64,000 bases of DNA, from IMG/VR virus record IMGVR_UViG_3300025872_000056, positions 1 to 64,000 of that record. The stretch is one strand, 5' to 3'. The number at the start of each line of letters is the position of its first letter. Within the stretch, counting starts at the first letter, position 1. The DNA is from a virus. Below are positions 30,182 through 61,118 of the stretch, one piece after another. The notes under the pieces were generated by a model. It was not told the DNA's origin, did no database searches, and worked only from the letters and a program-made list of their open reading frames with translations. A program made the translations under genes and the position numbers.

Positions 30182-30322
30182 TTATTTATGAGACTTTCGC
30201 TTCTTTAATTTGTGTTTAAGTTCTTGATTTTCCATTGCAAGTTTACCAGCAGCCCGTGTGAGTTCAATCAATTGGGCTCGCAATTCATTTATTTGTTTGT
30301 CTTTGTCTTCTTTTTTGGGCAT
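30182..30322 (-). CDS. Small coiled-coil protein (46 aa)
   Basis: 46 residues from ATG 30322 (MPKKEDKDKQINELRAQLIE), a short coiled coil with a Lys-rich end. The ATG directly follows the T-run of the tmRNA terminator. Frames extending further upstream lie in the tmRNA and are not believed. No separate promoter seen, so expression would depend on read-through. Confidence 0.45.
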   Translation of the reverse strand: MPKKEDKDKQINELRAQLIELTRAAGKLAMENQELKHKLKKRKSHK

Positions 30323-30357
30323 AAAAAATCCACGGTTTTTCAGTCGCGGGAAAACCG
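30323..30357 (-). terminator. Terminator of the tmRNA
   Basis: Minus-strand hairpin with a 7-bp stem (CGGTTTT/AAAACCG) followed by TGGATTTTTT. Confidence 0.65.
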
Positions 30358-30561
30358 GGAAACCCCACTGCTTAAGCAGCCATCCGCATTGGTGCGGCTT
30401 TTGTTGTTGCAACTGTTTATTTACGACACTCGTTACCCGTGTCGGACATCTCCTTCTTCATTACTTTGCGCTGATCGATTCCTTTCGGACCCGTAAAGTG
30501 GATCCGGGGAGATTCGAACTCCCGTGTCATACGCATTTCAATTCGATATCAACAATGCCAT
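30330..30561 (-). ncRNA. ssrA: Circularly permuted (two-piece) tmRNA
   Basis: The acceptor piece comes first (about 30561-30499): T-arm GGGAG-TTCGAAT-CTCCC at 30523-30507, acceptor strand CGGATCC at 30506-30500 and unpaired A 30499; CCA is not encoded. After only six bases (30498-30493) the coding piece starts with GGGTCCG (30492-30486), which pairs with CGGATCC over 7 bp (one G-U). A D-arm-like GGAATCGA follows, then hairpin CGACAC/GTGTCG (30444-30424) and TAAATAAACAGTT. The tag frame GCA...GCT GCT TAA (30410-30372) encodes ATTKAAPMRMAA, ending in the usual Ala-Ala. A hairpin spans the stop codon. Rescues stalled ribosomes and tags their products for proteolysis. End positions are approximate. 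Confidence 0.82.
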
Positions 30562-30567
30562 ATGTAT

Positions 30568-30576
30568 ATTATACCA
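30568..30576 (-). promoter_or_regulatory. Extended -10 promoter of the tmRNA
   Basis: TGGTATAAT on the minus strand just beyond the stop of the protease/SGNH gene; no good -35 box. Predicted start near 30561, at the beginning of the acceptor piece. Confidence 0.6.
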
Positions 30577-30577
30577 A

Positions 30578-32764
30578 TTAATATGTTGGTTGTGGAGGCC
30601 AATTACTATTATTCCCATAAGAATTATCATATCCCCAAGTATTTGATGCAAATGTTATAAATCTTTCTGCAATTAATTTCATACCTGTATACCCCCAATG
30701 GTATATGTCATTGTTTTCTAATTGTGCATCAGAAGTTTTTATCCAATAAGTTGGTCTTGGGATTATTGCTTCTATATCTGGGTTTCTATAGAAAGAAGTT
30801 ATTTCTTGTAAAACAGTATTATATAGACTTATATTTTCACCATATGAAGTCTGATCACCCCCATCATTTAATAAAGTAAATATTTTAACGCTATTTCTAT
30901 AAAGATAATCCAAATTTTCTATCAAAGAACCAATATTTGTTCTAAAAGTTCCATCATCAACCCCCTCAATAGCATCATTCACACCAATCGATATGAATAC
31001 ATAAGTTTGTGGGGTCCTTCCAAATTTAGAAATCATGTCTTCAGATGCGATATCATAAGTATTGAACAATCTTGTTAAAGGTCTAAAGGGACCTTGTAAT
31101 TTTGCAGAACCTGAAGTTAATCCTTTTTGCCCAATTTTAATTATATGAATATCTTTATTTCCAAATAAATTTACCATTTCTTTTGTTTTTGCTATTCCTA
31201 ATTCAATTCCATGTGGTGGTCCAGTTTGACCTTCAAATTCCCAGAATTTGTCAGTAACATTAGTTACTCCGGGAATTCCAAGAATATTATTTCCAGTTGA
31301 ACCTATGTTTAGATTTTCAAAAAATCCTAAATCATTATTAAATATTTTTATATTAGATTTTATACCAAGTTCAGATTGTAATGCTTGATAATTTTTTGCC
31401 AATCCAACTGCGTTTTCATCTCCATATATAATTACTAAAGGATGATGATTTGGATCTGATTTAAATGAAATTGAATTTGGGGCCAGTGCTGCACTATATC
31501 CATTATTATTATAAGAAACAACAATATAAGAATAAGTTACTCCACTTAATAGTCCAGAAATATTAAATGTTGTATTTCCCACCAAATTTGAATTTTCTGA
31601 AATAGTAGTATTATATAAAGAATATGTTTCCCCGTTTTGATATATGGTTTCTGGGTATGGAGGTGGATCCAAATAATTTACTAAAGAGATTTCATACGAA
31701 GAGACATCAAAGATATATTCTTTTAATGCATCAAAAAATTGTCTTTCTTTTTGACTAGCAAGTGGACTGGACCATAAAGGGTCTCGTATTCCTTCACCTC
31801 CATAAAGTAAGGCAACGAAACAAGTCTCATTCAGGTGAGGTACATAACATAAGAGAGGTGTTCCGCTATCCCCCGCCCAAATTCCCACATTTGGATTTCT
31901 TATTGTTTGTTGTGTATTTGTAATTAAACCTTGATATGCAGCATTTGGTTTAATATTATGATCAAAATAATGAACTGGAGCATTGTGATTTTTTGTTACA
32001 ACTACTATTCCTTGAGGGGTGAGACGGAATAAAGGAACATCATCTGGTATTCCATAAGTATTTAAAAATTTATATGGTTTTACATATTGTAATTCTTGAT
32101 TTGTAAAAGCTTGATCCAATTCAAGTAAAGCCCAATCTTTTCCAAAATCATTAGGCCAATTATAGTTTGCAGGATATGTCGATCTATTATTAAAATTTAT
32201 AACTGTAGTTGCTGTTTTTGAATAAGTTACATTATTTGTTCCGAGAAAATAAAAAGTTCCACTTATTGGATAACCGATAAAATGCTTTGTGCAAATTAAA
32301 TGTTTTGGACTTATTAAAATAAAAGCAGGAATTGCATTATTCCAATAATTAAAATCAGATGCTATTGTAAAATTACCAGAAGGACATCCCGGATAATAAC
32401 ATTGTTTTGTGCTATTTGTTACATAATTTTCAGTATAAGACTGACCCCACCAAAAATTTTTATCTACAGCAGTTGGATAATAGACGACATCATTTACAAT
32501 TTTTACGCCAGAACTATTTACACCAGCTTGTCCAGCAAATGTATCAAAACTGTATGTTGGTGCTCCTCTTCCCCTTAAAGATATGCCAGAAAAGTTTACA
32601 GAAAATGTAAATCCATAAGAAGGATCATTGATGTATAAATTTGGATTAAGTCCACTAACTCCAACTTGTACATTGTTTGCATAATTAGTAGGATCTATTA
32701 TTGCAGTTCCTGTATATGTGTACAAAGAATGTAAATTTGAATTAAGATTTACTATAAATGCCAT
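30578..32764 (-). CDS. Trypsin-like protease fused to SGNH hydrolase-like domain
   Basis: 728 residues. Residues about 130-345 form a chymotrypsin-like serine protease: ISPKHLICTKHFIG (H161), KDWALLELDQ (D210) and WAGDSGTPLL (S300), the full triad in order. Residues about 375-435 are a fibronectin type III half (YQNGETYSL to VSYNNNGYS). Residues about 440-710 resemble an SGNH esterase: VIIYGDENAVG, ISIGVNDA (594-597) and DIYHWGYTG (D686, H689); the block I serine is replaced by Glu450, so esterase activity is doubtful. Sits downstream of a split-FN3 protein in a late operon, so it is probably a fibre or virion enzyme. Proteolysis of surface proteins or of phage proteins is inferred. Confidence 0.85.
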   Translation of the reverse strand: MAFIVNLNSNLHSLYTYTGTAIIDPTNYANNVQVGVSGLNPNLYINDPSYGFTFSVNFSGISLRGRGAPTYSFDTFAGQAGVNSSGVKIVNDVVYYPTAVDKNFWWGQSYTENYVTNSTKQCYYPGCPSGNFTIASDFNYWNNAIPAFILISPKHLICTKHFIGYPISGTFYFLGTNNVTYSKTATTVINFNNRSTYPANYNWPNDFGKDWALLELDQAFTNQELQYVKPYKFLNTYGIPDDVPLFRLTPQGIVVVTKNHNAPVHYFDHNIKPNAAYQGLITNTQQTIRNPNVGIWAGDSGTPLLCYVPHLNETCFVALLYGGEGIRDPLWSSPLASQKERQFFDALKEYIFDVSSYEISLVNYLDPPPYPETIYQNGETYSLYNTTISENSNLVGNTTFNISGLLSGVTYSYIVVSYNNNGYSAALAPNSISFKSDPNHHPLVIIYGDENAVGLAKNYQALQSELGIKSNIKIFNNDLGFFENLNIGSTGNNILGIPGVTNVTDKFWEFEGQTGPPHGIELGIAKTKEMVNLFGNKDIHIIKIGQKGLTSGSAKLQGPFRPLTRLFNTYDIASEDMISKFGRTPQTYVFISIGVNDAIEGVDDGTFRTNIGSLIENLDYLYRNSVKIFTLLNDGGDQTSYGENISLYNTVLQEITSFYRNPDIEAIIPRPTYWIKTSDAQLENNDIYHWGYTGMKLIAERFITFASNTWGYDNSYGNNSNWPPQPTY

Positions 32765-47771: not shown

Positions 47772-48182
47772 ATGAAATCATTTAAGCAATATCTAATAAA
47801 CGAAGAATCGGAAACCCCAGCAAAAAAAGATTATGATGGAGATGGAGTAATAGAACCTGGAAGCAAAGAATGGAAAGATTCCAGGGATAACGCCATAAAG
47901 CAATCAATCGCTGAACGTGATAGAGGCGATTATGCTGCTTTGGAAAAAAGATTTGCAGAAATCAGTGATGCCGATTTAACTAGATTACTCCCGGGGCCAG
48001 TAAAAAAGTTTGGAATTAGTGGAGTTAGAAAAAATCTTGGTCAATTTGTCGATAATACGGGAAAACCAAGAACTGCTGCCGCTGCAATGGCACAACACTT
48101 TAAATCTGGTGAAGGTGGCAAATCTCTTGGGAAAATATTAGATCCTGTAAAAGCAGACCGAGCACGCCCACAGGAAGATTAA
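47772..48182 (+). CDS. Late protein with capsid-targeting-like N-terminus and DxDGDG motif
   Basis: 136 residues: MKSFKQYLINEESETPAKKD, then DYDGDGVIEPGSKEWKDSRD, a short acidic calcium-binding-like motif common in virion proteins of T4-like phages, and a helical rest. Cleavage-type site I-N-E followed by E. Its stop abuts the convergent tRNA-Glu. Confidence 0.75.
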   Translation: MKSFKQYLINEESETPAKKDYDGDGVIEPGSKEWKDSRDNAIKQSIAERDRGDYAALEKRFAEISDADLTRLLPGPVKKFGISGVRKNLGQFVDNTGKPRTAAAAMAQHFKSGEGGKSLGKILDPVKADRARPQED

Positions 48183-48256
48183 TGATCCTGACGGGATTCG
48201 AACCCGTGTTATGGCCTTGAAAGGGCCGTGTCCTAGACCGACTAGACGACAGGACC
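48183..48256 (-). tRNA. tRNA-Glu (TTC)
   Basis: 74 nt: acceptor GGTCCTG/CAGGATC, discriminator A, anticodon stem GGCC/GGCC around CTTTCAA (TTC), T-loop TTCGAAT. It marks the border between the AT-rich late block and the GC-richer small-gene arm. Confidence 0.94.
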
Positions 48257-48262
48257 AGAGTT

Positions 48263-48436
48263 TCAGTTATCTGTTGTTCGTCGGACTTTGATCGAAGCCA
48301 GAATCATTCCGATCATTGTTCCGACGCAGGAACCAACCACGGCACCGTCATAGTTCTTGTGGTACAGATAACCAATTAAGTTCAAGGCGATCAAGATTAC
48401 CAATGCAGTAATTAAATTTGGGATGTACTTTTTCAT
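48263..48436 (-). CDS. Small membrane protein (57 aa)
   Basis: 57 residues with two membrane helices (LITALVILIALNLIGYLY and GAVVGSCVGTMIGMILA) and a basic end. Ribosome site AAAGGA; ATGA overlap with the upstream gene. Unknown function. Confidence 0.65.
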   Translation of the reverse strand: MKKYIPNLITALVILIALNLIGYLYHKNYDGAVVGSCVGTMIGMILASIKVRRTTDN

Positions 48437-48876
48437 TGCTTTCCTTTTTTAGTTTCCAAAATCTTATAATTCTTCTTTATTCTTTCCTCTTCACAAAGAG
48501 TTTTAAGCCAGTTACCGCTTACGCAGATCTGCCCAGGCTGTCCCGTGATCTCACAAATTCTACTTGACTTTAGTTCTGCTTCTCCAATTATCGAAGCTAC
48601 TTTATCATATAGATGCGGATCATCACTGTCACAGGAAAAATAGAATCTAAGACTTCCAAATTTTTCCTTGATCTGCATTACTCTGAAACCACATTGAAAA
48701 TCTTCCAATGAATACTTTCCATAGGATTCTTTAAGAATGCCGTCCAGCTTTTGGCAGAGTTCATCGACAAGCCCATACCATCCACTGGGAATAAAAGAGT
48801 ACCCCCCTGACTCCATGTGATTGAATACAAGTGGATATTTCTTCTGAAGAAGATCTATGTAGTCAATCTCGTCCAT
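48433..48876 (-). CDS. Conserved phage protein with degenerate Cys motif (147 aa)
   Basis: 147 residues from ATG 48876, which overlaps the upstream stop (TAATG). The pattern GWYGLVDELCQKLDGIL, IKEKFGSLRFYFSCD, CEITGQPG and WLKTLCEE matches a phage family that usually carries two Cys pairs; here part of the pairs is lost. Function unknown. Confidence 0.75.
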   Translation of the reverse strand: MDEIDYIDLLQKKYPLVFNHMESGGYSFIPSGWYGLVDELCQKLDGILKESYGKYSLEDFQCGFRVMQIKEKFGSLRFYFSCDSDDPHLYDKVASIIGEAELKSSRICEITGQPGQICVSGNWLKTLCEEERIKKNYKILETKKGKQ

Positions 48877-49118
48877 TACTCGTCTTTTCCTTTTCCCCAA
48901 CCATTCTCATATTTGTATTCCGTGAGAATTGATTTCCCCTTGGAAACATCCTTATATCTCTCGTCTATGGAATGATTCATGGGATAATGCTTTAGAATTC
49001 TTCGTGCTCTCTCCCTGACTTGGGGAGATACATCAGGATAGACAGTTTCATTTAGAAGATCATAGAGAAACTGTTTTGCACTCATTAAACTGTTGTATTC
49101 TTCATTTGGTAATGTCAT
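48876..49118 (-). CDS. Small BPSL0761-like phage protein (80 aa)
   Basis: 80 residues from ATG 49118, preceded by AAGGAGAACACCA. The segment SAKQFLYDLLNETVYPDVSP followed by VRERARRILKHYP resembles short prophage proteins (BPSL0761-type) of unknown function. Overlaps the upstream gene by 17 bases; the ribosome site lies inside that gene's last codons. Confidence 0.7.
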   Translation of the reverse strand: MTLPNEEYNSLMSAKQFLYDLLNETVYPDVSPQVRERARRILKHYPMNHSIDERYKDVSKGKSILTEYKYENGWGKGKDE

Positions 49119-49338
49119 TGGTGTTCTCCTTAAAGAAACCCCATCCCATATCTTTGGCAATCTGTTCCGGTGTCTTTCTCAAGTGTACGACATATGTTGC
49201 AGTAACATTCGACATTGTGTTGCAATACAAACGCCTAGCCTCATCACGCTGCTTTCTGAATTCCAAGACTTCCTTGAACAAAACTTCTGCTGGAGGAAGT
49301 GTATCGCCGTGATCATTGTCACCCACAAAATCAGTCAT
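49102..49338 (-). CDS. Small paralogue family member 1 (KENTND tail, 78 aa)
   Basis: 78 residues from ATG 49338, again behind AAGGAGAACACCA. C-terminal half RKQRDEARRLYC...GWGFFKENTNDITK is similar to the genes at 49331 and 62246. The codons for KENTND are also the ribosome site and start of the next gene. Function unknown. Confidence 0.65.
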   Translation of the reverse strand: MTDFVGDNDHGDTLPPAEVLFKEVLEFRKQRDEARRLYCNTMSNVTATYVVHLRKTPEQIAKDMGWGFFKENTNDITK

Positions 49339-49645
49339 TGGTGTTCTCCTTAAAGCAGTCCCATCCACGCCGATCCGCAACTTGGTTTGCCGTACATGGC
49401 GGCGATGGGGAAGGACGGTATGCCTCATCCCTACACACCTCACGCCTTGCCTCGTCACGCTCAATGGTCAATTCAATAATTTTTTCTGAACGCATATCAA
49501 ACATGGCAATGCTGGTATCTAGTTCCCTCCGCAGATGCATAATCTCCGCATAAGCCTCACCAATGTCCCGCAGAACATCCGCAGGGAGATCGGCGCGCTT
49601 GGTATGGCAGCGTAGGCGGTAATCTATGGGCTGGTAGTCAGGCAT
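49331..49645 (-). CDS. Small paralogue family member 2 (KENTND tail, 104 aa)
   Basis: 104 residues with a helical heptad-like middle (DIGEAYAEIMHLRRELDTSI), ERDEARREVC and the end GWDCFKENTND. The last 8 bases overlap the next gene, and the tail encodes its ribosome site. The start shares one base with the upstream stop (TAATG-type). Confidence 0.7.
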   Translation of the reverse strand: MPDYQPIDYRLRCHTKRADLPADVLRDIGEAYAEIMHLRRELDTSIAMFDMRSEKIIELTIERDEARREVCRDEAYRPSPSPPCTANQVADRRGWDCFKENTND

Positions 49646-50091
49646 TACTTTCTCCTTCTTACACCAAGTATAGCAGCGATTCCAAGGACTGCAAGGACTC
49701 CGGGAGCAGGAACATCGGGAATCTCGGTGTCAATGTCGTCCCCATCCAACTCTGTTGCCATACAAACGCTATAGACTGTATCATGGGGGACAGGGATGAA
49801 CATATCCTGATCCACGGTCTGAATCGTCATCACATGCCTGCCGTTTGAGTAGACCTTGTGAATCCAAAAGCCATCGAATGATCCCATGAAATATTTGTTG
49901 TTGTTCACGGGATAATTGGAGATGGTGTTGTTGGTCAGAGCCTCGCCAAGAGGTTCGGTGATCGTGAACTGATTGTCCCACATCAATGGGCTCGCAAAGG
50001 TTACCTCTTGATAAGTGGAACCCTGATACTCGGAGCGAGTGAAGAACTGACCGTTCGAATTGAACAAAGTTGAAGTATTAATGGTAATCAC
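49645..50091 (-). CDS. Protein with PEP-CTERM-like sorting tail
   Basis: 148 residues from GTG 50091 (AAGGAA 8 bases upstream; TTG 50097 is an alternative). The body is beta-rich with many Asn/Thr residues (NTISNYPVNNNKYFMGSFDG). The C-terminus is VPAPGVLAVLGIAAILG then VRRRK: Pro motif, one membrane helix and Arg cluster, the layout of PEP-CTERM/exosortase signals (VPAPG variant). No N-terminal signal peptide is visible, which is odd for an exported protein. May be acquired from the host. Confidence 0.75.
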   Translation of the reverse strand: MITINTSTLFNSNGQFFTRSEYQGSTYQEVTFASPLMWDNQFTITEPLGEALTNNTISNYPVNNNKYFMGSFDGFWIHKVYSNGRHVMTIQTVDQDMFIPVPHDTVYSVCMATELDGDDIDTEIPDVPAPGVLAVLGIAAILGVRRRK

Positions 50092-50093
50092 AA

Positions 50094-50498
50094 TCAAAGT
50101 TCCTTGTAATTTTTTGAAATAAAGTTTGCAATCTCATCAAACGACTTTCCGCTGTCATTCATGTCCGCAAGACTGACGAACTTATCAATATCACTATAAT
50201 GGAAACCTGTAGAACTTCTAACTCCTGCCCACTTTCTTACGGCAACAGGAAGAACATCTCCTTCCCGTCCATACTTACGAACCTGGATCGGTTTGCCGTG
50301 GGTGGTCATGCCAACAATGGTAGGGAGGACTTTTTGCTTGTTCCGCTTTCTATGTTCCTGATACAATTCGGTAAGAACACCCAAGCAACAATACTTGCAT
50401 CCTCCACGGGAATCAACCCGGCACAGCGCATGCTTTCCCTGCTTGTACTTCTTGGAACGCAGAGCCTTGATCCAACGCATAGCAATTTCTTTATTCAT
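50094..50498 (-). CDS. Conserved phage protein (134 aa)
   Basis: 134 residues: W-x2-ALRSKKYKQGKHALC near the start, CCLGVLTELYQEH, a central LPVAVRKWAGV and C-terminal SLADMNDSGKSFDEIANFI. This set defines a widespread phage family of unknown function. Own promoter (50517-50544) with a short leader containing TAGGA. Confidence 0.8.
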   Translation of the reverse strand: MNKEIAMRWIKALRSKKYKQGKHALCRVDSRGGCKYCCLGVLTELYQEHRKRNKQKVLPTIVGMTTHGKPIQVRKYGREGDVLPVAVRKWAGVRSSTGFHYSDIDKFVSLADMNDSGKSFDEIANFISKNYKEL

Positions 50499-50516
50499 CG
50501 TAAGTTCCTAAAGGAT

Positions 50517-50544
50517 ATTATACATCAAGAAGGTTATTTGTCAA
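50517..50544 (-). promoter_or_regulatory. Sigma70-like promoter
   Basis: TTGACA, 16-base spacer, TATAAT on the minus strand, partly inside the end of the upstream gene; 18-base leader with TAGGA before ATG 50498. Confidence 0.85.
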
Positions 50545-50842
50545 GCGTACCGTCCGGATTCTGCTTGCCGTCCGGATTATTTCGAAATTTTTCCATATGG
50601 GGACAGTTACAACACTCAAACTCTATATCCTTTGGATGGACAAGCAGATCGTCCCAATCTAGACACCAATGCCATCCTTCCTTCATTTCTTCCTCGGTTA
50701 GCCGAACGCAAGGCCCGGTGCCATTCTGAAGAAAGTCATATCTCTCGGGATTCATTCCGTGGAATTCATACTGTCCGGATTCTGAATCCCGTCCGGGGTC
50801 TGAAGGCCATCCGAAGTCGTATGTCTTTTTGTCGTCGGTCAT
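50534..50842 (-). CDS. Unknown small acidic protein (102 aa)
   Basis: 102 residues, Trp- and Cys-containing (WHWCLDWDDLLVHPKDIEFE, CCNCPHMEKF). The CxxC-like cluster could bind metal. ATGA overlap with the upstream membrane gene. No family recognised. Confidence 0.65.
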   Translation of the reverse strand: MTDDKKTYDFGWPSDPGRDSESGQYEFHGMNPERYDFLQNGTGPCVRLTEEEMKEGWHWCLDWDDLLVHPKDIEFECCNCPHMEKFRNNPDGKQNPDGTLDK

Positions 50843-51000
50843 TTGTCTATGATAATCGTGATTTTGTCGAACAATGATAGGACGCAGGCCACCATAAATA
50901 CGGCGGTTCCGGCGAGGATCAAAGCCATTGAAACATCAACAATTGAACTGAACACATCGCGCATAGAACTAGTATTTTTTGAAGTGGGTTTCTTTGACAT
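50839..51000 (-). CDS. Small membrane protein (53 aa)
   Basis: 53 residues, one membrane helix (VSMALILAGTAVFMVACVLSLF). Overlaps the downstream gene by ATGA and the upstream 41-residue frame by 32 bases. Unknown function. Confidence 0.6.
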   Translation of the reverse strand: MSKKPTSKNTSSMRDVFSSIVDVSMALILAGTAVFMVACVLSLFDKITIIIDK

Positions 51001-51094
51001 AAATTATTATCTCCGCAATAGTTAACATGATTGTTGGCATGAATACGGCCAACATAAACAAAGTAAAAGGAATTGTATGTGGATCGTAAACCAT
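50969..51094 (-). CDS. Possible very small membrane protein (41 aa)
   Basis: 41 residues, MVYDPHTIPFTLFMLAVFMP at the start and a single membrane helix. Ten bases after the upstream stop, no clear ribosome site. Plausible because of tight packing, but short. Confidence 0.45.
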   Translation of the reverse strand: MVYDPHTIPFTLFMLAVFMPTIMLTIAEIIIYVKETHFKKY

Positions 51095-51103
51095 GCAGAT
51101 TAT

Positions 51104-51421
51104 TTATTGTGCTTCTCTGTCTGTATCTGCAAGTTTGCGTAGAACATTGGAGAACTTGTTGTTGATTCTCTCAATGGATTCCAGCAATTCTTTTGCTGGT
51201 ATCTCTGCGTCCGGGTCTTGCTTGCCGTCCGCCTTTATGTCGAATGTCCCGTTCTTCCAAACGCGAATCTGGTCTGTACGGAAGTGCAGCAGCCGCCCTC
51301 CATCCTCCAGCGCGACGCACCAGACATCGTTCTCGTATGTCCCTCCGTCGCGGACATAGATGGCATAGCCGGGGCCAAGGGGCGTGATGACGGGCATTGG
51401 GTTGGTGAACTCGTGGAACAT
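51104..51421 (-). CDS. Unknown small protein, SH3-like (105 aa)
   Basis: 105 residues from ATG 51421 (a TTG at 51436 is possible). Strand-rich N-terminal half (GPGYAIYVRDGGTYENDVWC; LLHFRTDQIRVW) resembling small barrel folds, then a helical C-terminus (ELLESIERINNKFSNVLRKL). Unknown function. Confidence 0.7.
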   Translation of the reverse strand: MFHEFTNPMPVITPLGPGYAIYVRDGGTYENDVWCVALEDGGRLLHFRTDQIRVWKNGTFDIKADGKQDPDAEIPAKELLESIERINNKFSNVLRKLADTDREAQ

Positions 51422-51432
51422 GGGGTGGCCTA

Positions 51433-51651
51433 TCAAAACGCCGCCCCCGACGGGCCTGGTTTGCTTCCCTTCCCCGACACAGGGAATGAACGAACATAGG
51501 GAAGGGATAACCGGCTTGCAACTGCGATTGCAAGTGGCCCGTTGGGGGAGCGCATGGGGAGGAAAATAACTTTTAGGTATGCTAAAATGCGTCCGATAAA
51601 CAGTCGGGCATGGCCGGGAGATGGCTTGGTATGCTGTGTCCTATAACGCAT
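51433..51651 (-). CDS. Doubtful small frame (72 aa)
   Basis: 72-residue frame behind a good promoter (51664-51692), MRYRTQHTKPSPGHARLFIG at the start, basic and Pro/Ser-rich. Composition is unlike the neighbours, so it may be a leader region of the downstream gene rather than a real protein. Its stop overlaps the TTG start candidate of the next gene. Confidence 0.3.
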   Translation of the reverse strand: MRYRTQHTKPSPGHARLFIGRILAYLKVIFLPMRSPNGPLAIAVASRLSLPYVRSFPVSGKGSKPGPSGAAF

Positions 51652-51663
51652 TTGTTATGGGAC

Positions 51664-51692
51664 ATTGTACCACATAGCAATGCTAAAGTCAA
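51664..51692 (-). promoter_or_regulatory. Sigma70-like promoter
   Basis: TTGACT, 17-base spacer, TACAAT on the minus strand, upstream of 51651. Confidence 0.7.
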
Positions 51693-51779
51693 GCGTCAAG
51701 TTCCAAATGAAAGTTATTGCAGAATTTTTGCACCGACGAACTTAAAATAAATTTGTCCAAAGTGCTGCCCAATAAAAAA

Positions 51780-51809
51780 CTCCCCACAAGTTTTTAGGCT
51801 TGTGGGGAG
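51780..51809 (-). terminator. Rho-independent terminator after the VWA gene
   Basis: Perfect 11-bp stem (CTCCCCACAAG/CTTGTGGGGAG) with an 8-base loop, followed on the minus strand by GTTTTTTATT. Located 28 bases after the VWA gene stop. The rest of 51693-51836 holds A/T-tracts but no gene. Confidence 0.9.
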
Positions 51810-51836
51810 CAACCCTCTCTACCTGACTCGCCGCAG

Positions 51837-54005
51837 TCAGGTTAGTTTAAACTTCTGCAACTTGCGTCCCGCGATCAAGTCGATGAACCTAGACAGGAAC
51901 ACGCGAGAGTGCTTGCGCCCGGTCAGAGCCTTCAGGAAGTTATTCCTGATACGGACGAGCGTAGCCCCGGTCGGGATCTCATCGATGTCGGTCTTGGGCT
52001 TGACCGGACGAACAATGTAATACTCGTCAAACCCCGGAGTCAGATCCGGGTTGGACGGGATGAAGTTCTCCCGCTTGTAGTAGGCGTTGTACGCTGCCGT
52101 CACCTTGTTCTCAAGAGCAGCGATCTCCATGCTGTTCTTTCCACTACTGCGGGCTTCCCGAATGCGCTCCCAACTGTTCCTGTCGATAAACTTGTTGACA
52201 AGATCAGTCGCAAGATTGCCCATGCCGCCGATGCTGAATCCAACCGTAGTTGCACCCAACTTGCGAATCTCGTCCACCAAGAAGTATTGGATGGAACTAT
52301 TGAGACTTGCAACATAGCCTTCCTTGTCGCCGGGAACCATGATCGTGCGGCCCGTGGCTGCGTGTTGCACCCGGACTCCCTTGACCGGACGGTAGTAATA
52401 CTTTCCGTTGGGAGTCATCCCGGTCGGATCACCGTCCGTAATCAACATGAAGTTAACAATGTCGATCCCGGTGATTGCCTTATACTTGGGAAGGAAATCG
52501 TGCAAGACCAACAGGGCTTCATTGGTTGGAGTACCGTGAAGATCCATGATTGCCGGAATCGTCCGACGAACAAGATAAGAATTATTAATCTTGCCCCAAC
52601 TCTCACGGTCATTCATCATCGCTGCCGTCCACAGAAGATTCTCAATCCTCCGCTGCTCCTCCTCATTCATCTGCGAGGAAAGCACCTGACGCAGAGCAAC
52701 ATTGGACAGATCGAATCCATTGGGCATATTCTTCTTGGGGAAGATTCGATCATGCCGCTCCTTCATCTTTTCGTATCCCTCCGAACCCAAGGGAGCATCC
52801 TCCGTAAAGAGGAACACCTCGTAGGGAACACCAATCTTCCTACAGAACCAAGTCATAATCATCACCTGACGGATAACACCGTCAAGGCAACAGGCCATGC
52901 TTCCTGACCAATCGATTAGCATGACCATGCCATGCTTCTTGCCCTCGTACTTCACCAAGTTTCGCAGGAAGATATCGTCATGGGTCTTGTATTGGAACAA
53001 CTTGTCCGGGTTGATTACCCCGGTGTTCTTCATGCGCTCCTTCTTGATTTCCTCTGCTGCCTTGCGCCGCTCAAACTGCATGGCAAGTTCCCGCACCATG
53101 CCATTCGTATCCTTGCGGAACTGCTCAAGAGATTGGCTGATCATATACAGATCGCCCTTCAGGGTATCCGTCCCATCGGGATGATCCTTGCGGATCTTCT
53201 CCAAAACAAAATCCATTTCAGTCAGGATCTTCTTGTATGGGATGATTGCTTCACCGCTGTTGGCCTTGGGCAGAAGATAAGAAGCGTAGGGGAAATCAAT
53301 GTAGTTCTCCTGCCCCCTTCCCGGATCTTCCTTGCCCTCGCGGTCAAACTTCTGCATGGCATCGTCCATGCTAGTGCGGACTTCCAACTCATCGTCCCCA
53401 AGGCCAGGATTCTTCTTCTTCTTCTGCTTGGCCTCATCCTCCGCAAGAGCATAGAGATCCGTAGCAATCTCAACAACATCCTCGTAAGACTTGGCCCGAT
53501 TCACCCGGTCGATGATCTGCTGCTCCTGTGGAGACAGAGGAACCGTCATCAGGTTCAGGATGCCAACCTTGAAGTGAAGATTGATCTTGTCGATGATGGA
53601 CAACTGCGTGACATCAACATCGTTGATGCCAAAGATATCCTTGTCCAAGATTTCCTTGTAGCCCTCGTAGAAGTCGCGGCGACAGCCGGGGAACTTCTCC
53701 TTGATCATTCGTTCGATACGGGCATCCTCAATCACATTGAGGCAGGAACAAAACCCCTTGATCTTGAGTTTGTTTTCCTTGGCCTTGTTGACTGCCTCCG
53801 CATGAACATCCGGGGGAGTGAACAGGGCATGGGCAACCTCATGCGCGACGATCATATCGCGCAGGGAATCGGATGCCTTCCAATCGGGGATCGTAAGAGT
53901 ACGAGAATCCAAGTCAAACGACGCTGACGGTGCAGCAGTATCGAAATTGACAAAGATGTTCTCTGTGGCAAGCGCACGGGCAAAGAGAGAGGTTGAGGTT
54001 TTCAT
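51837..54005 (-). CDS. HExxH metallopeptidase-like + VWA protein (CobT-like)
   Basis: 722 residues. N-terminal zinc-peptidase motif MIVAHEVAHALFTPP (HEVAH at about 52-56), an acidic linker region (about 200-260), and a C-terminal von Willebrand A domain with the metal-site motif MVMLIDWSGSMACC (DxSxS) and LITDGDPTG. The match is to CobT-like proteins, which work with MoxR/CobS-type AAA+ ATPases such as the one at 54348. In phages such pairs probably act as chaperone-like remodelling machines rather than cobalt chelatases. Leaderless promoter 6 bases upstream; strong terminator downstream. Confidence 0.88.
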   Translation of the reverse strand: MKTSTSLFARALATENIFVNFDTAAPSASFDLDSRTLTIPDWKASDSLRDMIVAHEVAHALFTPPDVHAEAVNKAKENKLKIKGFCSCLNVIEDARIERMIKEKFPGCRRDFYEGYKEILDKDIFGINDVDVTQLSIIDKINLHFKVGILNLMTVPLSPQEQQIIDRVNRAKSYEDVVEIATDLYALAEDEAKQKKKKNPGLGDDELEVRTSMDDAMQKFDREGKEDPGRGQENYIDFPYASYLLPKANSGEAIIPYKKILTEMDFVLEKIRKDHPDGTDTLKGDLYMISQSLEQFRKDTNGMVRELAMQFERRKAAEEIKKERMKNTGVINPDKLFQYKTHDDIFLRNLVKYEGKKHGMVMLIDWSGSMACCLDGVIRQVMIMTWFCRKIGVPYEVFLFTEDAPLGSEGYEKMKERHDRIFPKKNMPNGFDLSNVALRQVLSSQMNEEEQRRIENLLWTAAMMNDRESWGKINNSYLVRRTIPAIMDLHGTPTNEALLVLHDFLPKYKAITGIDIVNFMLITDGDPTGMTPNGKYYYRPVKGVRVQHAATGRTIMVPGDKEGYVASLNSSIQYFLVDEIRKLGATTVGFSIGGMGNLATDLVNKFIDRNSWERIREARSSGKNSMEIAALENKVTAAYNAYYKRENFIPSNPDLTPGFDEYYIVRPVKPKTDIDEIPTGATLVRIRNNFLKALTGRKHSRVFLSRFIDLIAGRKLQKFKLT

Positions 54006-54011
54006 GGCTAT

Positions 54012-54040
54012 ATCCTACCCTGTCGGCGTTGGGCTGTCAA
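54012..54040 (-). promoter_or_regulatory. Promoter of the VWA gene
   Basis: TTGACA, 17-base spacer, TAGGAT on the minus strand, ending 6 bases before ATG 54005; predicted leaderless. Confidence 0.75.
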
Positions 54041-54106
54041 GGGGGGAGAGAGAAACATTCACAAAAAAGTTCTCTCTCCCCCCAACAAACATCAGGCAAA
54101 ACAAAC

Positions 54107-54337
54107 TCAAGAATTCACGGGAACCGCATTGATGAGCGAGGTCAGGTCAAAGATGCCCTTGCTGACCGCACTCTTGCATTCCTTCATAACCCAAGTGGGA
54201 ATGCCCTTCATGTTGATCGACTGCGCGACCATCACCAAGTCAGACTTCTTGAAATTACTGAAGTCTCCATTGAGGTTGGCCTCTGCGTAAATCTTTGCGG
54301 CTTGGACAAAACGATTTCTCTTATTCATGTATGGCAT
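54107..54337 (-). CDS. Small protein between AAA+ and VWA genes (76 aa)
   Basis: 76 residues, helical (MPYMNKRNRFVQAAKIYAEA; MKECKSAVSKGIFDLTSLIN). AAAGGA before the ATG, 10 bases after the AAA+ stop. Perhaps an adaptor of the AAA+/VWA pair; no family recognised. Confidence 0.65.
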   Translation of the reverse strand: MPYMNKRNRFVQAAKIYAEANLNGDFSNFKKSDLVMVAQSINMKGIPTWVMKECKSAVSKGIFDLTSLINAVPVNS

Positions 54338-54347
54338 GACTTTCCTT

Positions 54348-55310
54348 TCAAATTGTGATTGTAACCGGATCGGTGTTCTGAATCACGGGCTGCTCCGGTG
54401 CAGGCGGCGTGATCTGTTCGTTGGCAGGAGGATTGATCGTCGGATCAATCTTGGTGTAGAGATTCCAAAACGCCTCCTGCGTTTCCTTGTCAAACCGATT
54501 CAGGGCAAGCCGAATCGACTTCTCCTTGTCGGAGAAGATGCTGAACGCCCGGACGATATCGACCAAACGACGAGTCGAAATGATCTTGTCCAATGCGCCC
54601 TCCGCAAACCCCTTGCGGATGGTTTCAGCCCATCGCGTCAGGTAGTTGGCAAAGTCATCGTCGCGGCAATTCCTCTCCATCATCTGACGAATCAGGATGC
54701 GAGTCTCCACCGCCTTGGGAGCATACTCCTGCTCGTAGGTAAATCCAAAGCGATCAAGGAACGCCTCGTTCTGAATGCGGGTTCCGACGAATCTGTCATC
54801 GCCCATGCCGTCACCCTTGGTGTTGGCCGTAGCGACAACCATGAAGCCGGGAGCCGGAACGACAAATTCCGAAATCTTCTTGAGGAAGATTCCCTTGCCT
54901 TCAAGCACGGGCTGAAGGCACATAATCCGGTCAGACGCAAGGTCAACCTCGTCAAGCAGCAGCACCGCACCGCGCTTCATGGCCTCAATGACAGGGCCGT
55001 AGACAAAGACGGTAGTGCCGTTGTGCAGCCGGAAGCCACCAAGCAGATCGTCCTCGTCAGTCTCCGCAGTAATGTTTGCACGAATCAATTCGCGCTTGGC
55101 CTTGGCACAAGCCTGCTCAACCATCGTAGTCTTGCCGTTGCCCGACAGACCCGTGATGTAGACGGTGTTGAAGTCGGTGCGACTGACAAACTTCTCAATG
55201 TCCTCGTAGTGGCCCCACGCAACATAGGACGAATCCTTGGCCGGGACGAGCGTACCAATGTCGCTCGTCATGTTGCTCCCCAACATCATGTTAACCTTGT
55301 TCTCACTCAT
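54348..55310 (-). CDS. MoxR/CobS-like AAA+ ATPase
   Basis: 320 residues. Walker A GLSGNGKTT (about 54-62), Walker B GAVLLLDEVDLAS, sensor 1 FMVVATANTKGDG and an arginine-rich sensor 2 region. The layout is that of the MoxR/CobS group, which forms rings and acts on VWA-domain partners; the partner gene lies just downstream. Expressed from a consensus promoter with a leader of about 50 bases containing a small hairpin. Confidence 0.9.
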   Translation of the reverse strand: MSENKVNMMLGSNMTSDIGTLVPAKDSSYVAWGHYEDIEKFVSRTDFNTVYITGLSGNGKTTMVEQACAKAKRELIRANITAETDEDDLLGGFRLHNGTTVFVYGPVIEAMKRGAVLLLDEVDLASDRIMCLQPVLEGKGIFLKKISEFVVPAPGFMVVATANTKGDGMGDDRFVGTRIQNEAFLDRFGFTYEQEYAPKAVETRILIRQMMERNCRDDDFANYLTRWAETIRKGFAEGALDKIISTRRLVDIVRAFSIFSDKEKSIRLALNRFDKETQEAFWNLYTKIDPTINPPANEQITPPAPEQPVIQNTDPVTITI

Positions 55311-55363
55311 GTTCGTATCCTGTGTCTTGAGTTTGTACCGGAGTTCGCTCCGATGATTGCACC

Positions 55364-55392
55364 ATGATACACCAATCTTCCACCCCTGTCAA
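55364..55392 (-). promoter_or_regulatory. Promoter of the AAA+ gene
   Basis: TTGACA, 17-base spacer, TATCAT on the minus strand. The leader to ATG 55310 contains hairpin CGGAG/CTCCG and AGGA. Confidence 0.8.
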
Positions 55393-55450
55393 GATTGCTA
55401 GTCACATTTTTTTGAGATTTTTTGTTGGACAAATTCACCCCAAAAGAACA

Positions 55451-55477
55451 TGACCCGTCCTAATAAGGAACGGGTCA
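55451..55477 (-). terminator. Terminator-like hairpin (GACCCGT)
   Basis: TGACCCGT/ACGGGTCA with an inner CCT/AGG stem; followed on the minus strand by TGTTCTTTT. Third of three hairpins after the gene at 55589. Confidence 0.6.
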
Positions 55478-55510
55478 GAGGTTTTGAAAGAACCCTTGAT
55501 AAACTTTCTT

Positions 55511-55571
55511 CACTTGGGTTGATATCGGCCCAAGTGTTTGCTACTAGCAGAGGCGCGCTATTGCGTAGCAA
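55511..55571 (-). other. Two further intergenic hairpins
   Basis: CACTTGGG/CCCAAGTG (55511-55518 with 55529-55536) and TTGCTAC/GTAGCAA (55538-55544 with 55565-55571). Together with the 55451 hairpin they fill the gene-free stretch 55440-55588. Could be a small RNA or stacked transcription/processing signals. Confidence 0.55.
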
Positions 55572-55588
55572 GGGCTTTTAAGGTTCGT

Positions 55589-55831
55589 TCAAGAATTGCT
55601 GTTGTAGTAATTCTTCTCCTTGCAGCAATCCTTGTTCATGTTTCGCTCAATCTCGTTGATGCGACGGTTCGTTGACTCAATCGCCTCATCGGTAGTCTGA
55701 TAAATTCCACGCATGGAATCGTCAACATGACGCTGCATGGCCTCCATCTTGGAGCGCATATACAGATGGTAGATGCTGACTCCAAAGAACCCTGCGAGAA
55801 CCCAACCGATAAGAGTGCTGTCAATTTCCAT
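55589..55831 (-). CDS. Small membrane-anchored coiled-coil protein (80 aa)
   Basis: 80 residues: membrane helix (LIGWVLAGFFGVSIYHLYM) then a coiled coil (DEAIESTNRRINEIERNMNK) and CCKEKNYYNSNS. Same layout as 56198-56398. AAGGA before the ATG and own promoter at 55867-55895. Unknown function. Confidence 0.7.
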   Translation of the reverse strand: MEIDSTLIGWVLAGFFGVSIYHLYMRSKMEAMQRHVDDSMRGIYQTTDEAIESTNRRINEIERNMNKDCCKEKNYYNSNS

Positions 55832-55866
55832 TTTGTTTCCTTTTTGTTGTTCGCCGTCGATGCACT

Positions 55867-55895
55867 ATGGTATCACGCCTTGGCCGCTGTGTCAA
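55867..55895 (-). promoter_or_regulatory. Sigma70-like promoter
   Basis: TTGACA, 17-base spacer, TACCAT on the minus strand; about 35-base leader with AAGGA before ATG 55831. Overlaps the end of the upstream gene. Confidence 0.75.
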
Positions 55896-56193
55896 GCCCC
55901 TCGCTCAACATTTTTCGGAAATGTTCAAACAAAGAATCGGCGTAGTAAACATAATCATCACACAAATCAAAAACCTCGCCATCATTTGCAAGAATCTCTG
56001 AACAAATGATTACATTGTTCTGAATGTCATTGAAATCTAGCCCATTCAGATTGCACATACCTATCTCAAGATCATTCCCGGTTTCTCTGAAGAAACTTTT
56101 CTTGAGAATTAAGATGGAATTATCCGATTCAAAAGACCATTCAAAATCATCAAAAGAACCTTTGGACGGGATTTTGTTCAGGGACTTATCCAT
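55873..56193 (-). CDS. Unknown small acidic protein (106 aa)
   Basis: 106 residues from ATG 56193, overlapping the upstream stop by a few bases. AT-rich coding compared with neighbours (FDDFEWSFESDNSILILKKS; FDLCDDYVYYADSLFEHFRK). No family recognised. Confidence 0.65.
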   Translation of the reverse strand: MDKSLNKIPSKGSFDDFEWSFESDNSILILKKSFFRETGNDLEIGMCNLNGLDFNDIQNNVIICSEILANDGEVFDLCDDYVYYADSLFEHFRKMLSEGLDTAAKA

Positions 56194-56197
56194 TGAA

Positions 56198-56398
56198 TTA
56201 CTTCTTGAGATTGTCCTCAATCTTGTTGACATCCCGCTCAAGTGCGGTAATGTCATCACGAATCCAACGGTACTCCGTATCCATGAACTTCCGGCACTCA
56301 TCGAATTTTGTATCGACATAGTGCTTCATCAGGTGGAAGCAGAATCCAAGCAAAGTAATCGCAAACAAAATCCAAGCAAAGTAAGTGTACCAATTCAT
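56198..56398 (-). CDS. Small membrane-anchored coiled-coil protein (66 aa)
   Basis: 66 residues: membrane helix (YFAWILFAITLLGFCFHLM) and coiled coil (IRDDITALERDVNKIEDNLK). Resembles the gene at 55589 in layout. Ribosome site AAAGGA; follows tRNA-Ile on the same transcript. Confidence 0.7.
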   Translation of the reverse strand: MNWYTYFAWILFAITLLGFCFHLMKHYVDTKFDECRKFMDTEYRWIRDDITALERDVNKIEDNLKK

Positions 56399-56426
56399 TT
56401 TGTTTCCTTTCTGTAAGACAAAACAA

Positions 56427-56502
56427 TGGGAAGGGTGGGAGTTGCACCCACATACTCGCGCTTATAGGGCGCGCGCTCTAACTACTTTTCAGCCACCTTC
56501 CC
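56427..56502 (-). tRNA. tRNA-Ile (TAT), structurally unusual
   Basis: 76 nt with acceptor GGGAAGG/CCTTCCC, discriminator A and a perfect GC anticodon stem (CGCGC/GCGCG) around CCTATAA, anticodon TAT (reads AUA). Odd points: position 33 is C instead of the near-universal U; the D-loop lacks the GG pair; the T-loop is TGCAACT. These lose normal elbow contacts, so function may be altered. Confidence 0.8.
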
Positions 56503-56592
56503 GAATGGGAAACTAATTTTACGGCTAGTCCCCAACCGGGCAATTTCGTATTGCCTGACGAAAGGGAGTTTTGGTGTGTCCCCATGAAACAC

Positions 56593-56946
56593 TTATAAAG
56601 TATTCGTTCCATACTTGGGCTGAACCATGTAATGATCGCACAAAGCCCGTTCGACTTCATCGTAAACCCTGTCACGATTGTCCTCGCGCTTGGCCCACTC
56701 ATCATCATCCAAGTCTGCATCAAGAGTCTCATCGACCGCAGGAATTTGGTCAATGTAGACCTCGCTCACGAAAGTATTGTGATTCCCGCCCTCCTCCATC
56801 GTGAGGGTGAGGAAATAGATTACCTCGTAGTTCTTGCCGTCCACCTCAACGCAAGTAGTACGCTCAATGGTAGTCTTGGTATCGCTCTTGTTCTTTGCCA
56901 TTGGGTGATCGAAATGAATCCGGGTTGAGGGGTCGGGCCTGTCCAT
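56593..56946 (-). CDS. Unknown early protein (117 aa)
   Basis: 117 residues from ATG 56946 (MDRPDPSTRIHFDHPMAKNK), chosen because the promoter at 56956-56984 lies inside the longer frame. Beta-rich middle (TCVEVDGKNYEVIYFLTLTM), acidic C-terminal half (DETLDADLDDDEWAK). Unknown function. Confidence 0.7.
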   Translation of the reverse strand: MDRPDPSTRIHFDHPMAKNKSDTKTTIERTTCVEVDGKNYEVIYFLTLTMEEGGNHNTFVSEVYIDQIPAVDETLDADLDDDEWAKREDNRDRVYDEVERALCDHYMVQPKYGTNTL

Positions 56947-56955
56947 GTTATGCAT

Positions 56956-56984
56956 ATTGTAGGGCATTGAAGTCTCCTTGTCAA
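56956..56984 (-). promoter_or_regulatory. Sigma70-like promoter
   Basis: TTGACA, 17-base spacer, TACAAT on the minus strand, ending 9 bases before ATG 56946. Confidence 0.75.
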
Positions 56985-56998
56985 GCATTTTTTTCAAG

Positions 56999-57072
56999 CG
57001 TTCCCGGTTGGATTTGAACCAACAACCAACGGATTAGAAATCCGTTGCGCTATCCAATTGCGCCACGGGAAC
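56999..57072 (-). tRNA. tRNA-Arg (TCT)
   Basis: 74 nt: acceptor GTTCCCG/CGGGAAC, discriminator G, anticodon stem ACGGA/TCCGT around TTTCTAA (TCT), T-loop TTCAAAT. Reads AGA, frequent in the AT-rich genes. Confidence 0.94.
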
Positions 57073-57136
57073 AAATCGGAAGGGTACTCTATTTTGGGCT
57101 AGGCATCCTCAATTTCGCCTTCCTTGTCGGATGGAG

Positions 57137-57310
57137 TTAATAAACTTCCATCACGGTATATAGTCGATTGAGCAGCGGGACTCCCATACCCGCATCTTCA
57201 GGAAGAATTCGGAATTCAAGGATCGTCAACGATCCGGCAACCATAGCCGTAGAATGTTTAGCATACGGACTATTCCTGATAACTTCTATTAAGTCTATGC
57301 TCTCTCTCAA
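57137..57310 (-). CDS. Possible small protein between tRNAs (57 aa)
   Basis: Open frame from a TTG at 57310 to TAA at 57137 (RESIDLIEVIRNSPYAKHST; LEFRILPEDAGMGVPLLNRL). The amino-acid pattern looks protein-like, but there is no ATG and no ribosome site. An internal ATG at about 57244 would give 35 residues. Confidence 0.35.
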   Translation of the reverse strand: MRESIDLIEVIRNSPYAKHSTAMVAGSLTILEFRILPEDAGMGVPLLNRLYTVMEVY

Positions 57311-57347
57311 CTTGGGCGGTCTTGATAAAGATTCGCCTCACTTTTAA

Positions 57348-57432
57348 TGGGATTGGTGGGACTTGAACCCACAAGACTTTAAGGGTCGGCAGATTTTGAG
57401 TCTGCTGCGTATGCCGATTCCGCCACAATCCC
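57348..57432 (-). tRNA. tRNA-Leu (CAA)
   Basis: 85 nt class II tRNA: acceptor GGGATTG/CAATCCC, discriminator A, anticodon stem GCAGA/TCTGC around CTCAAAA (CAA), long variable arm, T-loop TTCAAGT. Reads UUG. Confidence 0.94.
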
Positions 57433-57437
57433 GTTGC

Positions 57438-57680
57438 TCACTCCTCCTCGTCATCCTCATCTATGATGACATAACCCTTTCCAAGTTTCTCCTCCAATTC
57501 CTCAAGCATCGCAGCATTAAGAGTTTCCTCTGTATATCCCGATCCACGAATGGCGATATTTAATCTCTTGAGTGCCATTGAAAAAGTTGGATCTGTCTTG
57601 CAGGCAACTTCCACAGCCATAAGAAGATCAGATACATAAAGCGGACTCATGCTAAATTCGATTCGACGGCGATTGCTCAT
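57438..57680 (-). CDS. Unknown small protein with acidic tail (80 aa)
   Basis: 80 residues, helical (YVSDLLMAVEVACKTDPTFS; EETLNAAMLEELEEKLGKGY) with IDEDDEEE at the end. Leaderless geometry from the promoter at 57687-57715. Six bases upstream of tRNA-Leu in the transcript. Unknown function. Confidence 0.7.
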   Translation of the reverse strand: MSNRRRIEFSMSPLYVSDLLMAVEVACKTDPTFSMALKRLNIAIRGSGYTEETLNAAMLEELEEKLGKGYVIIDEDDEEE

Positions 57681-57686
57681 GGGTGT

Positions 57687-57715
57687 ATTGTATCAGGTTG
57701 GAGTGAGGTTGTCTA
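57687..57715 (-). promoter_or_regulatory. Promoter with TACAATACACCCATG module
   Basis: TAGACA, 17-base spacer, TACAAT on the minus strand; -10 box ends 6 bases before ATG 57680. The 15-base -10-to-ATG string is identical to that at 63769. Confidence 0.7.
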
Positions 57716-57955
57716 CTCAATTACCTTCCACTCCTTGATGGAGGAGAGGATGACGCTGCGCCATTCTCCGATATCAAGGTCGTAGATTCGCTGAACGCCG
57801 GGGGAGTCAGCCTTGCCCGTGGAGCGAGGGTGATCGACCTTGGGAATCTGATTGAGGTCAGTAGTTCCCTTGAGGACGCGCTTCTCGCCGTCCTTCTTGA
57901 CGAACACGACTTGGACGATTGCTCCCTGCTTGAGAGCCTTCCTGAAGTCACTCAT
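57713..57955 (-). CDS. SH3-barrel (DUF2693-like) protein (80 aa)
   Basis: 80 residues from ATG 57955, overlapping the upstream stop by 8 bases. FRKALKQGAIVQVVFVKKDG then KRVLKGTTDLNQIPK and YDLDIGEWRSVIL match the small SH3-like family annotated as DUF2693 in phages and phage-like elements. Possibly RNA or DNA binding; function unknown. Confidence 0.75.
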   Translation of the reverse strand: MSDFRKALKQGAIVQVVFVKKDGEKRVLKGTTDLNQIPKVDHPRSTGKADSPGVQRIYDLDIGEWRSVILSSIKEWKVIE

Positions 57956-58226
57956 CGATCTCCTCCTCGCAGGCGTAGGCTTCCGCCCACTTGGCCTGCT
58001 GCTTGTTGATGAATTCTTCCGCTTCTTCTTCCGTATCAAAGAGTTTGACATTCTCAATGTCTCCGTTCAGGTTGTTCTGAAAGATCACGATGCACTTGTC
58101 GCAATTCATCGTACCTTCAGGGAAGAAGGCCGCAAATTGATCGCCCAAGTCAGTCTCCCAATCCGGCTCAATGTCGGAGTCGGTGAGAATTGCATCGGCA
58201 AGATCGTAAAGTTCGTCGTTGTTCAA
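57948..58226 (-). CDS. Unknown acidic protein (92 aa)
   Basis: 92 residues, strongly acidic at both ends (DELYDLADAILTDSDIEPDW; ACEEEIDE), with CDKC in the middle and DTEEEAEEFINKQQAKWAE. ATGA overlap with the upstream zinc-finger gene. Confidence 0.7.
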   Translation of the reverse strand: MNNDELYDLADAILTDSDIEPDWETDLGDQFAAFFPEGTMNCDKCIVIFQNNLNGDIENVKLFDTEEEAEEFINKQQAKWAEAYACEEEIDE

Positions 58227-58414
58227 TTGTGAATCTCCTCAAGAAGAATGTTGATTGCGGTCTTGACTTCCAAGTCACTCATGGATTGCGACTCGCCGCA
58301 AGCCTCACAGTACCATTCCCAATCAGACGATTCGCTGATGAGATTGTACGGAAAAGAGATGCGACGGGTTCCACCGCAAGCACATTTGTCATTCATGGTC
58401 GGGAGGGGTGTCAT
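58223..58414 (-). CDS. Small zinc-finger-like protein (63 aa)
   Basis: 63 residues from ATG 58414 (second in-frame ATG at 58396). Cys pairs CACG and CEAC enclose a Trp-rich stretch (SDWEWYCEACGESQSM), a likely zinc ribbon. The promoter at 58424-58452 ends 9 bases before the ATG. Longer frames run through the promoter and were not used. Confidence 0.75.
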   Translation of the reverse strand: MTPLPTMNDKCACGGTRRISFPYNLISESSDWEWYCEACGESQSMSDLEVKTAINILLEEIHN

Positions 58415-58423
58415 TGTGGGTGT

Positions 58424-58452
58424 ATTGTAGGGTAGAGGTTTGGGCTTGTCAA
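58424..58452 (-). promoter_or_regulatory. Sigma70-like promoter
   Basis: TTGACA, 17-base spacer, TACAAT on the minus strand, then ACACCCACA and ATG 58414. Confidence 0.8.
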
Positions 58453-58673: not shown

Positions 58674-58677
58674 GAAT

Positions 58678-58750
58678 GCCTCCGGTGGGAATCGAACCCA
58701 CAACCAATAGATTAAAAGTCTACTGCGCTGCCAATTGCGCTACAGAGGCA
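58678..58750 (-). tRNA. tRNA-Lys (TTT)
   Basis: 73 nt: acceptor GCCTCTG/CGGAGGC, discriminator A, anticodon stem TAGA/TCTA around CTTTTAA (TTT), T-loop TTCGATT. Reads AAA/AAG. Confidence 0.95.
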
Positions 58751-58756
58751 GGATTG

Positions 58757-58787: not shown

Positions 58788-58798
58788 GGCAGGAGCAA

Positions 58799-61112: not shown

Positions 61113-61118
61113 GTTCAT

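Follow-up and report, generated by a model that had tools for sequence, protein, structure and literature searches.

Does the minus strand of an uncultivated T4-like phage encode a working, circularly permuted tmRNA, and which tag would this RNA add? The question is raised by positions of about 30323-30559 of a 64,000-base stretch of viral DNA, hereafter the window, from an IMG/VR record of 64,012 bases (IMGVR_UViG_3300025872_000056). Phage-encoded permuted tmRNAs are a known kind and have been published for Melnitz and the pelagimyophages. Melnitz, a methylophage, and the pelagimyophages carry two-piece ssrA genes, and a set of phage genomes from 2021 was found to contain 53 two-piece tmRNA structures (PMC9004378, 2022). 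In PMC9004378, the Melnitz ssrA is placed among those of Alphaproteobacteria, and a glutamine riboswitch is linked to it. Counting every form, 79 phage tmRNAs are listed in a 2025 database (PMC11915505). New in this study are a divergent phage clade of permuted tmRNAs, its very short spacers, and conserved RNA structures within the spacers of sister phages. No paper on this tmRNA lineage was found in the open-access literature, outside which most subscription journals lie.

ARAGORN called a permuted tmRNA at 30281-30589. The Rfam model RF04321 (tmRNA_permuted) matched 30372-30559 over its full length; the score, 52.1 bits, exceeds the gathering score of 47 (E 2.6e-7, computed over the whole 64-kb window). 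A chance match is ruled out by this E-value and by the covariation described below. An assembly artefact is unlikely because the identical gene is present in a second record (IMGVR_UViG_3300006641_000084; 100% identity over 35,749 bases including the tmRNA gene). The window tmRNA is divergent, since it scored below the cut-offs of the alpha (RF01849, 15.6 bits vs 50), beta (RF01850, 32 bits vs 84), and cyano (RF01851, 28.8 bits vs 70) models. In all sequence tests the gene is a member of the permuted tmRNA family, and by these cut-offs it lies outside the three named clades; one relative, L225, passes RF01849 with 58.5. The sequence-only reading had proposed a permuted tmRNA from the letters of the window and had suggested a check with ARAGORN and the clade models. 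Its main claim is borne out by ARAGORN, by RF04321 and by covariation in relatives; the alpha, beta, and cyano models gave no support. The cyanobacterial likeness it had noted in the tag is not supported, given the low RF01851 score. A cyanobacterial origin was rejected, as the cyano model was far under its cut-off and no psbA-type gene was found in 28 records searched.

On the minus strand, the acceptor (3') half comes first, followed by the spacer and the 5' coding half (Table 1). The acceptor half runs from its conserved start through a P2 strand, the T-arm, and the 3' acceptor strand to A73. The coding half comprises the 5' acceptor strand, the D-loop motif GGAATCGA, the other P2 strand, PK1, the tag, the stop hairpin, and a terminator-like end. 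The order of the halves, the G3-U70 acceptor stem, T-arm, D-loop motif, P2, PK1, and Ala-Ala-stop are shared with the RF04321 type, whereas the 6-nt spacer, the lack of an encoded CCA, and the 8-residue tag are not. Several details of the sequence-only reading were confirmed or refined. The acceptor strands pair over 7 bp as described, one pair being G3-U70. The six bases placed between them correspond to the spacer; the discriminator A (30499) additionally lies there. The T-arm, the D-loop motif, and the helix CGACAC/GTGTCG are all present, and the helix is now assigned to PK1 as its stem 1.

Table 1. Positions of the tmRNA gene features in the window and of spacer elements in related loci.
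Feature	Position	Strand	Basis or remark
-35-like TCCACA	30596-30591	minus	sequence
-10 box TATAAT, TGG directly before (extended -10)	30568..30573	minus	10/12 matches; about 2.3 chance sites per 600 bases, weak alone
Conserved 5' start of acceptor half, GGCATTGTTGAT	30548..30559	minus	kept across 17 short-spacer family members
P2 helix, acceptor-half strand TGCGT (partner 30467-30471)	30531..30535	minus	3/5 pairs changed on both sides
T-arm GGGAG TTCGAAT CTCCC	30507..30523	minus	RF04321 match; 100% paired, 17 distinct sequences
3' acceptor strand CGGATCC (30506-30500) and discriminator A73 (30499); CCA not encoded	30499..30506	minus	comparison
Spacer between halves, CTTTAC, 6 nt	30493..30498	minus	sequence
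5' acceptor strand GGGTCCG; G3 pairs with U70	30486..30492	minus	7 bp, 100% paired, 17 distinct sequences
D-loop region AAAGGAATCGATCAG	30471..30485	minus	covariance model; TCGA invariant
P2 helix, 5' strand GCGCA	30467..30471	minus	comparison
PK1 stem 1, CGACAC (30444-30439) with GTGTCG (30429-30424)	30409..30444 (whole PK1)	minus	48 sequences
PK1 stem 2, GTAAC with GTTGC	30436-30432 with 30413-30409	minus	48 sequences
Longer tag frame, ATTKAAPMRMAA*	30372..30410	minus	ARAGORN and sequence-only reading; start judged too early
Preferred tag frame, GCC GCA CCA ATG CGG ATG GCT GCT TAA (AAPMRMAA*)	30372..30398	minus	comparison
Stop-codon hairpin CTGC TTAA GCAG (H5-like)	30368..30379	minus	invariant in 48 sequences, neither for nor against pairing
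3' stem TGGG/CCCG, with CGGTTTT/AAAACCG overlapping it; perhaps a terminator hairpin or a terminal pseudoknot	30333..30367	minus	pseudoknot by inspection
T run 3' of hairpin, intrinsic terminator-like end	30323..30328	minus	sequence
Type X element in spacer	L190:5323-5489, L193:3978-4106, L236:6704-6825, L254:1766-1938, and nine more loci		
Type X element, free-standing	L192:5712-5839, L220:1968-2096, L197:1437-1564, L179:86-214, L196:1506-1607		
Type Y element in spacer	L220:2772-2868, L197:1629-1723, L204:344-440, L194:268-366, and others		36 distinct

The structure was tested by comparison with relatives. Among 17 distinct short-spacer sequences, 96.8% of the positions expected to pair in the acceptor stem, T-stem, and P2 formed standard pairs, against at most 60.4% when the strands were slid; double changes were counted in 45 cells vs 13.1 ± 3.4 in shuffles. 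Three acceptor-stem pairs showed double changes, and the U-G pair equivalent to G3-U70 was invariant (17/17). For PK1, the stop hairpin, and the next stem, 95.6% pairing was found in 48 sequences vs at most 47.2% in slid controls, with 55 double-change cells vs 15.0 ± 2.8 in shuffles. The stop hairpin and the next stem hardly vary and contribute no evidence. Shuffles ignore the relatedness of the sequences and slid controls keep it; both controls agreed. PK1 stem 2 was counted on alignment A2 only, because the 17-sequence alignment A3 misaligns this stem between subgroups. The terminal pseudoknot is an inspection-level claim, as the subgroups are offset by one column and its pairs are not countable. 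Judged from these alignments, the compensatory changes support the predicted acceptor stem, P2, and PK1. Minimum-free-energy folding of the tmRNA region was ordinary (z -0.92). Structural support is drawn from the covariance model and the relatives.

The same comparison bears on the resume codon and the tag. Both ARAGORN and the sequence-only reading start the tag at GCA (30410-30408), which would give the 12-residue ATTKAAPMRMAA. Since this GCA overlaps PK1 stem 2, with its G and C forming the last two bases of that covarying stem, translation probably resumes at GCC (30398-30396). The most likely tag is AAPMRMAA, with 8 residues instead of 12, because codon counts, in-frame stops, and the A at -4 across relatives favour it. 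Among the matches listed, 53 distinct relatives were compared. The codon eight back from the stop is GCC in 38 of them, while 13 have GCT and 2 have GGC. Position -4 relative to this codon is occupied by A (44 sequences) or G (9), and position -5 by T (45) or C (8). A86, which corresponds to -4, is nearly universal in tmRNAs, and its mutation has strong effects in E. coli, where A86G is partially active and U85C is tolerated (PMC2481249). At the position 12 nt upstream, the window and 25 of the 53 relatives have an in-frame GCA, as a start there would predict; the other 28 lack one. A tag begun at this position would run into an in-frame stop in L110, L172, and L207. The base at -4 from the codon there is most often G (33 sequences, against 19 with A and 1 with T), vs mostly A before GCC or GCT. 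ARAGORN gave no tmRNA call for L097, L119, and L131, in which GCA is out of frame. Resumption at GCA in an otherwise identical gene is accordingly given little probability. The proposed end of the tag has stood: Ala-Ala-stop is found in the window and in all family tags. Every family tag found has 8 residues (e.g., ANQLAMAA and ANELAMAA) and follows the form x-x-x-[ML]-[RA]-[MLV]-A-A. Automatic tmRNA calls can start a tag inside PK1.

The family was then defined by two patterns, which yielded at least 120 related IMG/VR viral loci, several of them one sequence from different samples. With 53 two-piece structures already counted in phages, this number contradicts the expectation that such a gene is rare in a phage. 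The short-spacer permuted-tmRNA pattern matched 38 viral loci, 28 of which group with the window; the remainder are mostly ordinary CCA-encoding permuted tmRNAs. The conserved stop-hairpin pattern matched at least 119 stretches, and its matches in L171 and L213 were rejected as chance matches. Two viral-contig patterns on the window's acceptor gave no match even though the same virus is in the collection, so the nearest records may have been left out. In cultured phages (blastn with short queries against INPHARED), only short matches such as T-arms were obtained, a search by which distant relatives could be missed. An exact pattern of the acceptor region had no match in 84,980 bacterial and archaeal genomes; the stop-hairpin motif had five matches in the same genomes, and ARAGORN found a tmRNA in none of the five. 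A host origin is disfavoured by both scans within the sensitivity of such strict patterns, by which a diverged host gene could be missed. Other T4-like contigs carry permuted tmRNAs at G005:97782-98034 (tag ANDDVYGGYALAA), G045:78885-79132, and G046:127201-127476 (both tag ANDAFYGEERLAA). These phages have DNA polymerases related to that of the window; unlike the window gene, their tmRNAs score 117-150 bits with RF04321, have ordinary AND... tags, and form a separate lineage. Like Melnitz and the pelagimyophages, the window phage would be a large aquatic myophage with a permuted tmRNA; unlike in Melnitz, no riboswitch family was matched near the gene, and nucleotide searches connect it to neither.

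The window encodes a gp43-type DNA polymerase, a UvsX-like recombinase, and a DnaB-like helicase, which place it among T4-like myophages, and also a primase, a thymidylate synthase, and a ribonucleotide reductase. The polymerase is about 42% identical to cyanophage polymerases, and the peptidase and CobS-like ATPase genes also suggest cyanophage-like relatives; the ribonucleotide reductase is closest (about 53%) to those of Roseobacter-group and other phages. Nine tRNA genes were called. The absence of an encoded CCA in the tmRNA fits the tRNAs of this phage, because none of the eight minus-strand tRNA genes examined encodes CCA. The tmRNA and its counterparts in related contigs share about 91-93% identity across some 240 bases, in contrast to mostly 64-79% for alignable gene stretches. 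In both the window and G060, the tmRNA adjoins the 728-aa gene. In G059, G061, and G082, the tmRNA lies between ribonucleotide reductase and RuvC-like genes, a place without tmRNA in the window; the tmRNA gene moved or was regained. The 728-aa neighbour (30578-32764, minus strand) has a weak GDSL-lipase match below cut-off (residues 583-666, E 2.3e-4), and a partial relative of it stands beside the tmRNA of G060. Elsewhere, the G+C content steps up at 48 kb, from about 36% to about 48%, and the coding strand apparently also switches there; the stretch from 48000 to 64000 contains numerous short ORFs along with several tRNAs.

Both the -10 box and the terminator of the sequence-only reading were recovered, namely TATAAT and a hairpin followed by a T run, as in a terminator. 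Of 73 distinct relatives, 40 have TAAATA at most 40 bases upstream of the tmRNA start and 8 have TATAAATA upstream; in randomly drawn stretches from these loci, the frequencies are 2.4% and 0.27%, respectively. Both motifs resemble a T4 late promoter. The window carries TGGTATAAT in place of TAAATA. A T4-late promoter was rejected for the window, where TATAAATA is not clearly enriched (6 vs about 3.9 expected) and the gene has TATAAT.

Two alternatives concern function. The RNA could be a decoy or inhibitor, which would occupy host SmpB, AlaRS, or stalled ribosomes and block trans-translation as reported for mycobacteriophage DS6A, whose tag-less tmRNA inhibits the endogenous tmRNA in E. coli according to the passage of PMC11915505 that cites this work. 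The search for SmpB was negative in the window and in four related records, all of them fragments, which would suit a decoy; host enzymes and host SmpB are probably needed. The DS6A and window RNAs are both phage-encoded; DS6A is described in that passage as lacking a tag, whereas the window gene keeps its tag frame. The tag frame, stop, PK1, and -4 position are kept across the family and would be superfluous in a pure decoy, which makes this alternative improbable. A decaying, functionless fragment of host ssrA acquired by chance is very improbable: host-derived ssrA pieces are known in phages (discussed in PMC9004378) and the gene diverges from the clade models, but its structure is complete with compensatory changes, it is more conserved than the flanking genes, and its family is wide and phage-only, with no matching bacterial gene by the patterns used.

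We therefore consider it very likely that the gene in the window works and provides the phage with a circularly permuted tmRNA, which would be processed, charged, and used for tagging as follows. A minus-strand precursor would be transcribed with the acceptor half first. Host RNase P would cleave immediately 5' of G1 in the coding half and a 3' nuclease of the host would cleave after A73, which would remove the 6-nt spacer; a host nucleotidyltransferase would then add CCA. The two halves would be held together by the acceptor stem and P2, the pairing of which is backed by covariation. Host alanyl-tRNA synthetase would charge the RNA through G3-U70, an element observed in the gene. Host SmpB and EF-Tu would deliver it to stalled ribosomes, where translation would resume at the GCC after PK1 and add AAPMRMAA, in a frame strongly supported by comparison. 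The C-terminal Met-Ala-Ala may serve as a signal for degradation by host proteases. The presumed benefit would be that ribosomes are freed and truncated peptides cleared during mRNA breakdown in infection. That the RNA supplements host ribosome rescue, as the sequence-only reading had offered, is plausible.

The 6-nt spacer is very short for the processing enzymes. Among the matches listed, 18 distinct spacers measured 5-13 nt, two measured 39 nt, and 49 exceeded this length. These 49 each contained one of two elements: type Y (71-99 nt) in 36 and type X (103-173 nt) in 13. Type X has a tRNA-like layout and 31 predicted pairs, 18 with compensatory changes; type Y mostly begins TTAGCCTAA and has 23 predicted pairs, 10 with compensatory changes. 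When 96 sources were searched, all 38 matches of type Y lay inside tmRNA spacers by coordinates, and 5 of the 18 matches of type X lay outside. Rfam gave no family for either type, matching only the tmRNA itself, and neither was found in the window. Possibly, as a tentative and rather doubtful reading, this is a phage-only permuted tmRNA lineage in which the spacer is a nesting site, the cuts of tRNA processing would also release a second phage RNA, and the window spacer represents the empty state. Further observations were made around the tmRNAs of this family. Upstream of the tmRNA in L201, L225, and L248, an apparent opposite-strand ORF, perhaps a homing endonuclease, is inserted by sequence in an acceptor half, and a second, different acceptor half follows it. 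By eye, a compact, perhaps tRNA-like element ending like GGGTGCAAGTCCCTCGCTACGC directly precedes tRNA-Tyr in L189 and L190, and its 3' tail is seen upstream of several tmRNAs (L096 and L102).

The very short spacer of the window and the inserts of its relatives raise the question of how closely the two halves of a permuted tmRNA can lie while processing enzymes still separate them. That phages carry a ribosome-rescue RNA of their own suggests that infection bears a real cost from stalled ribosomes, which the at least 120 natural variants of this tmRNA family may help to test.
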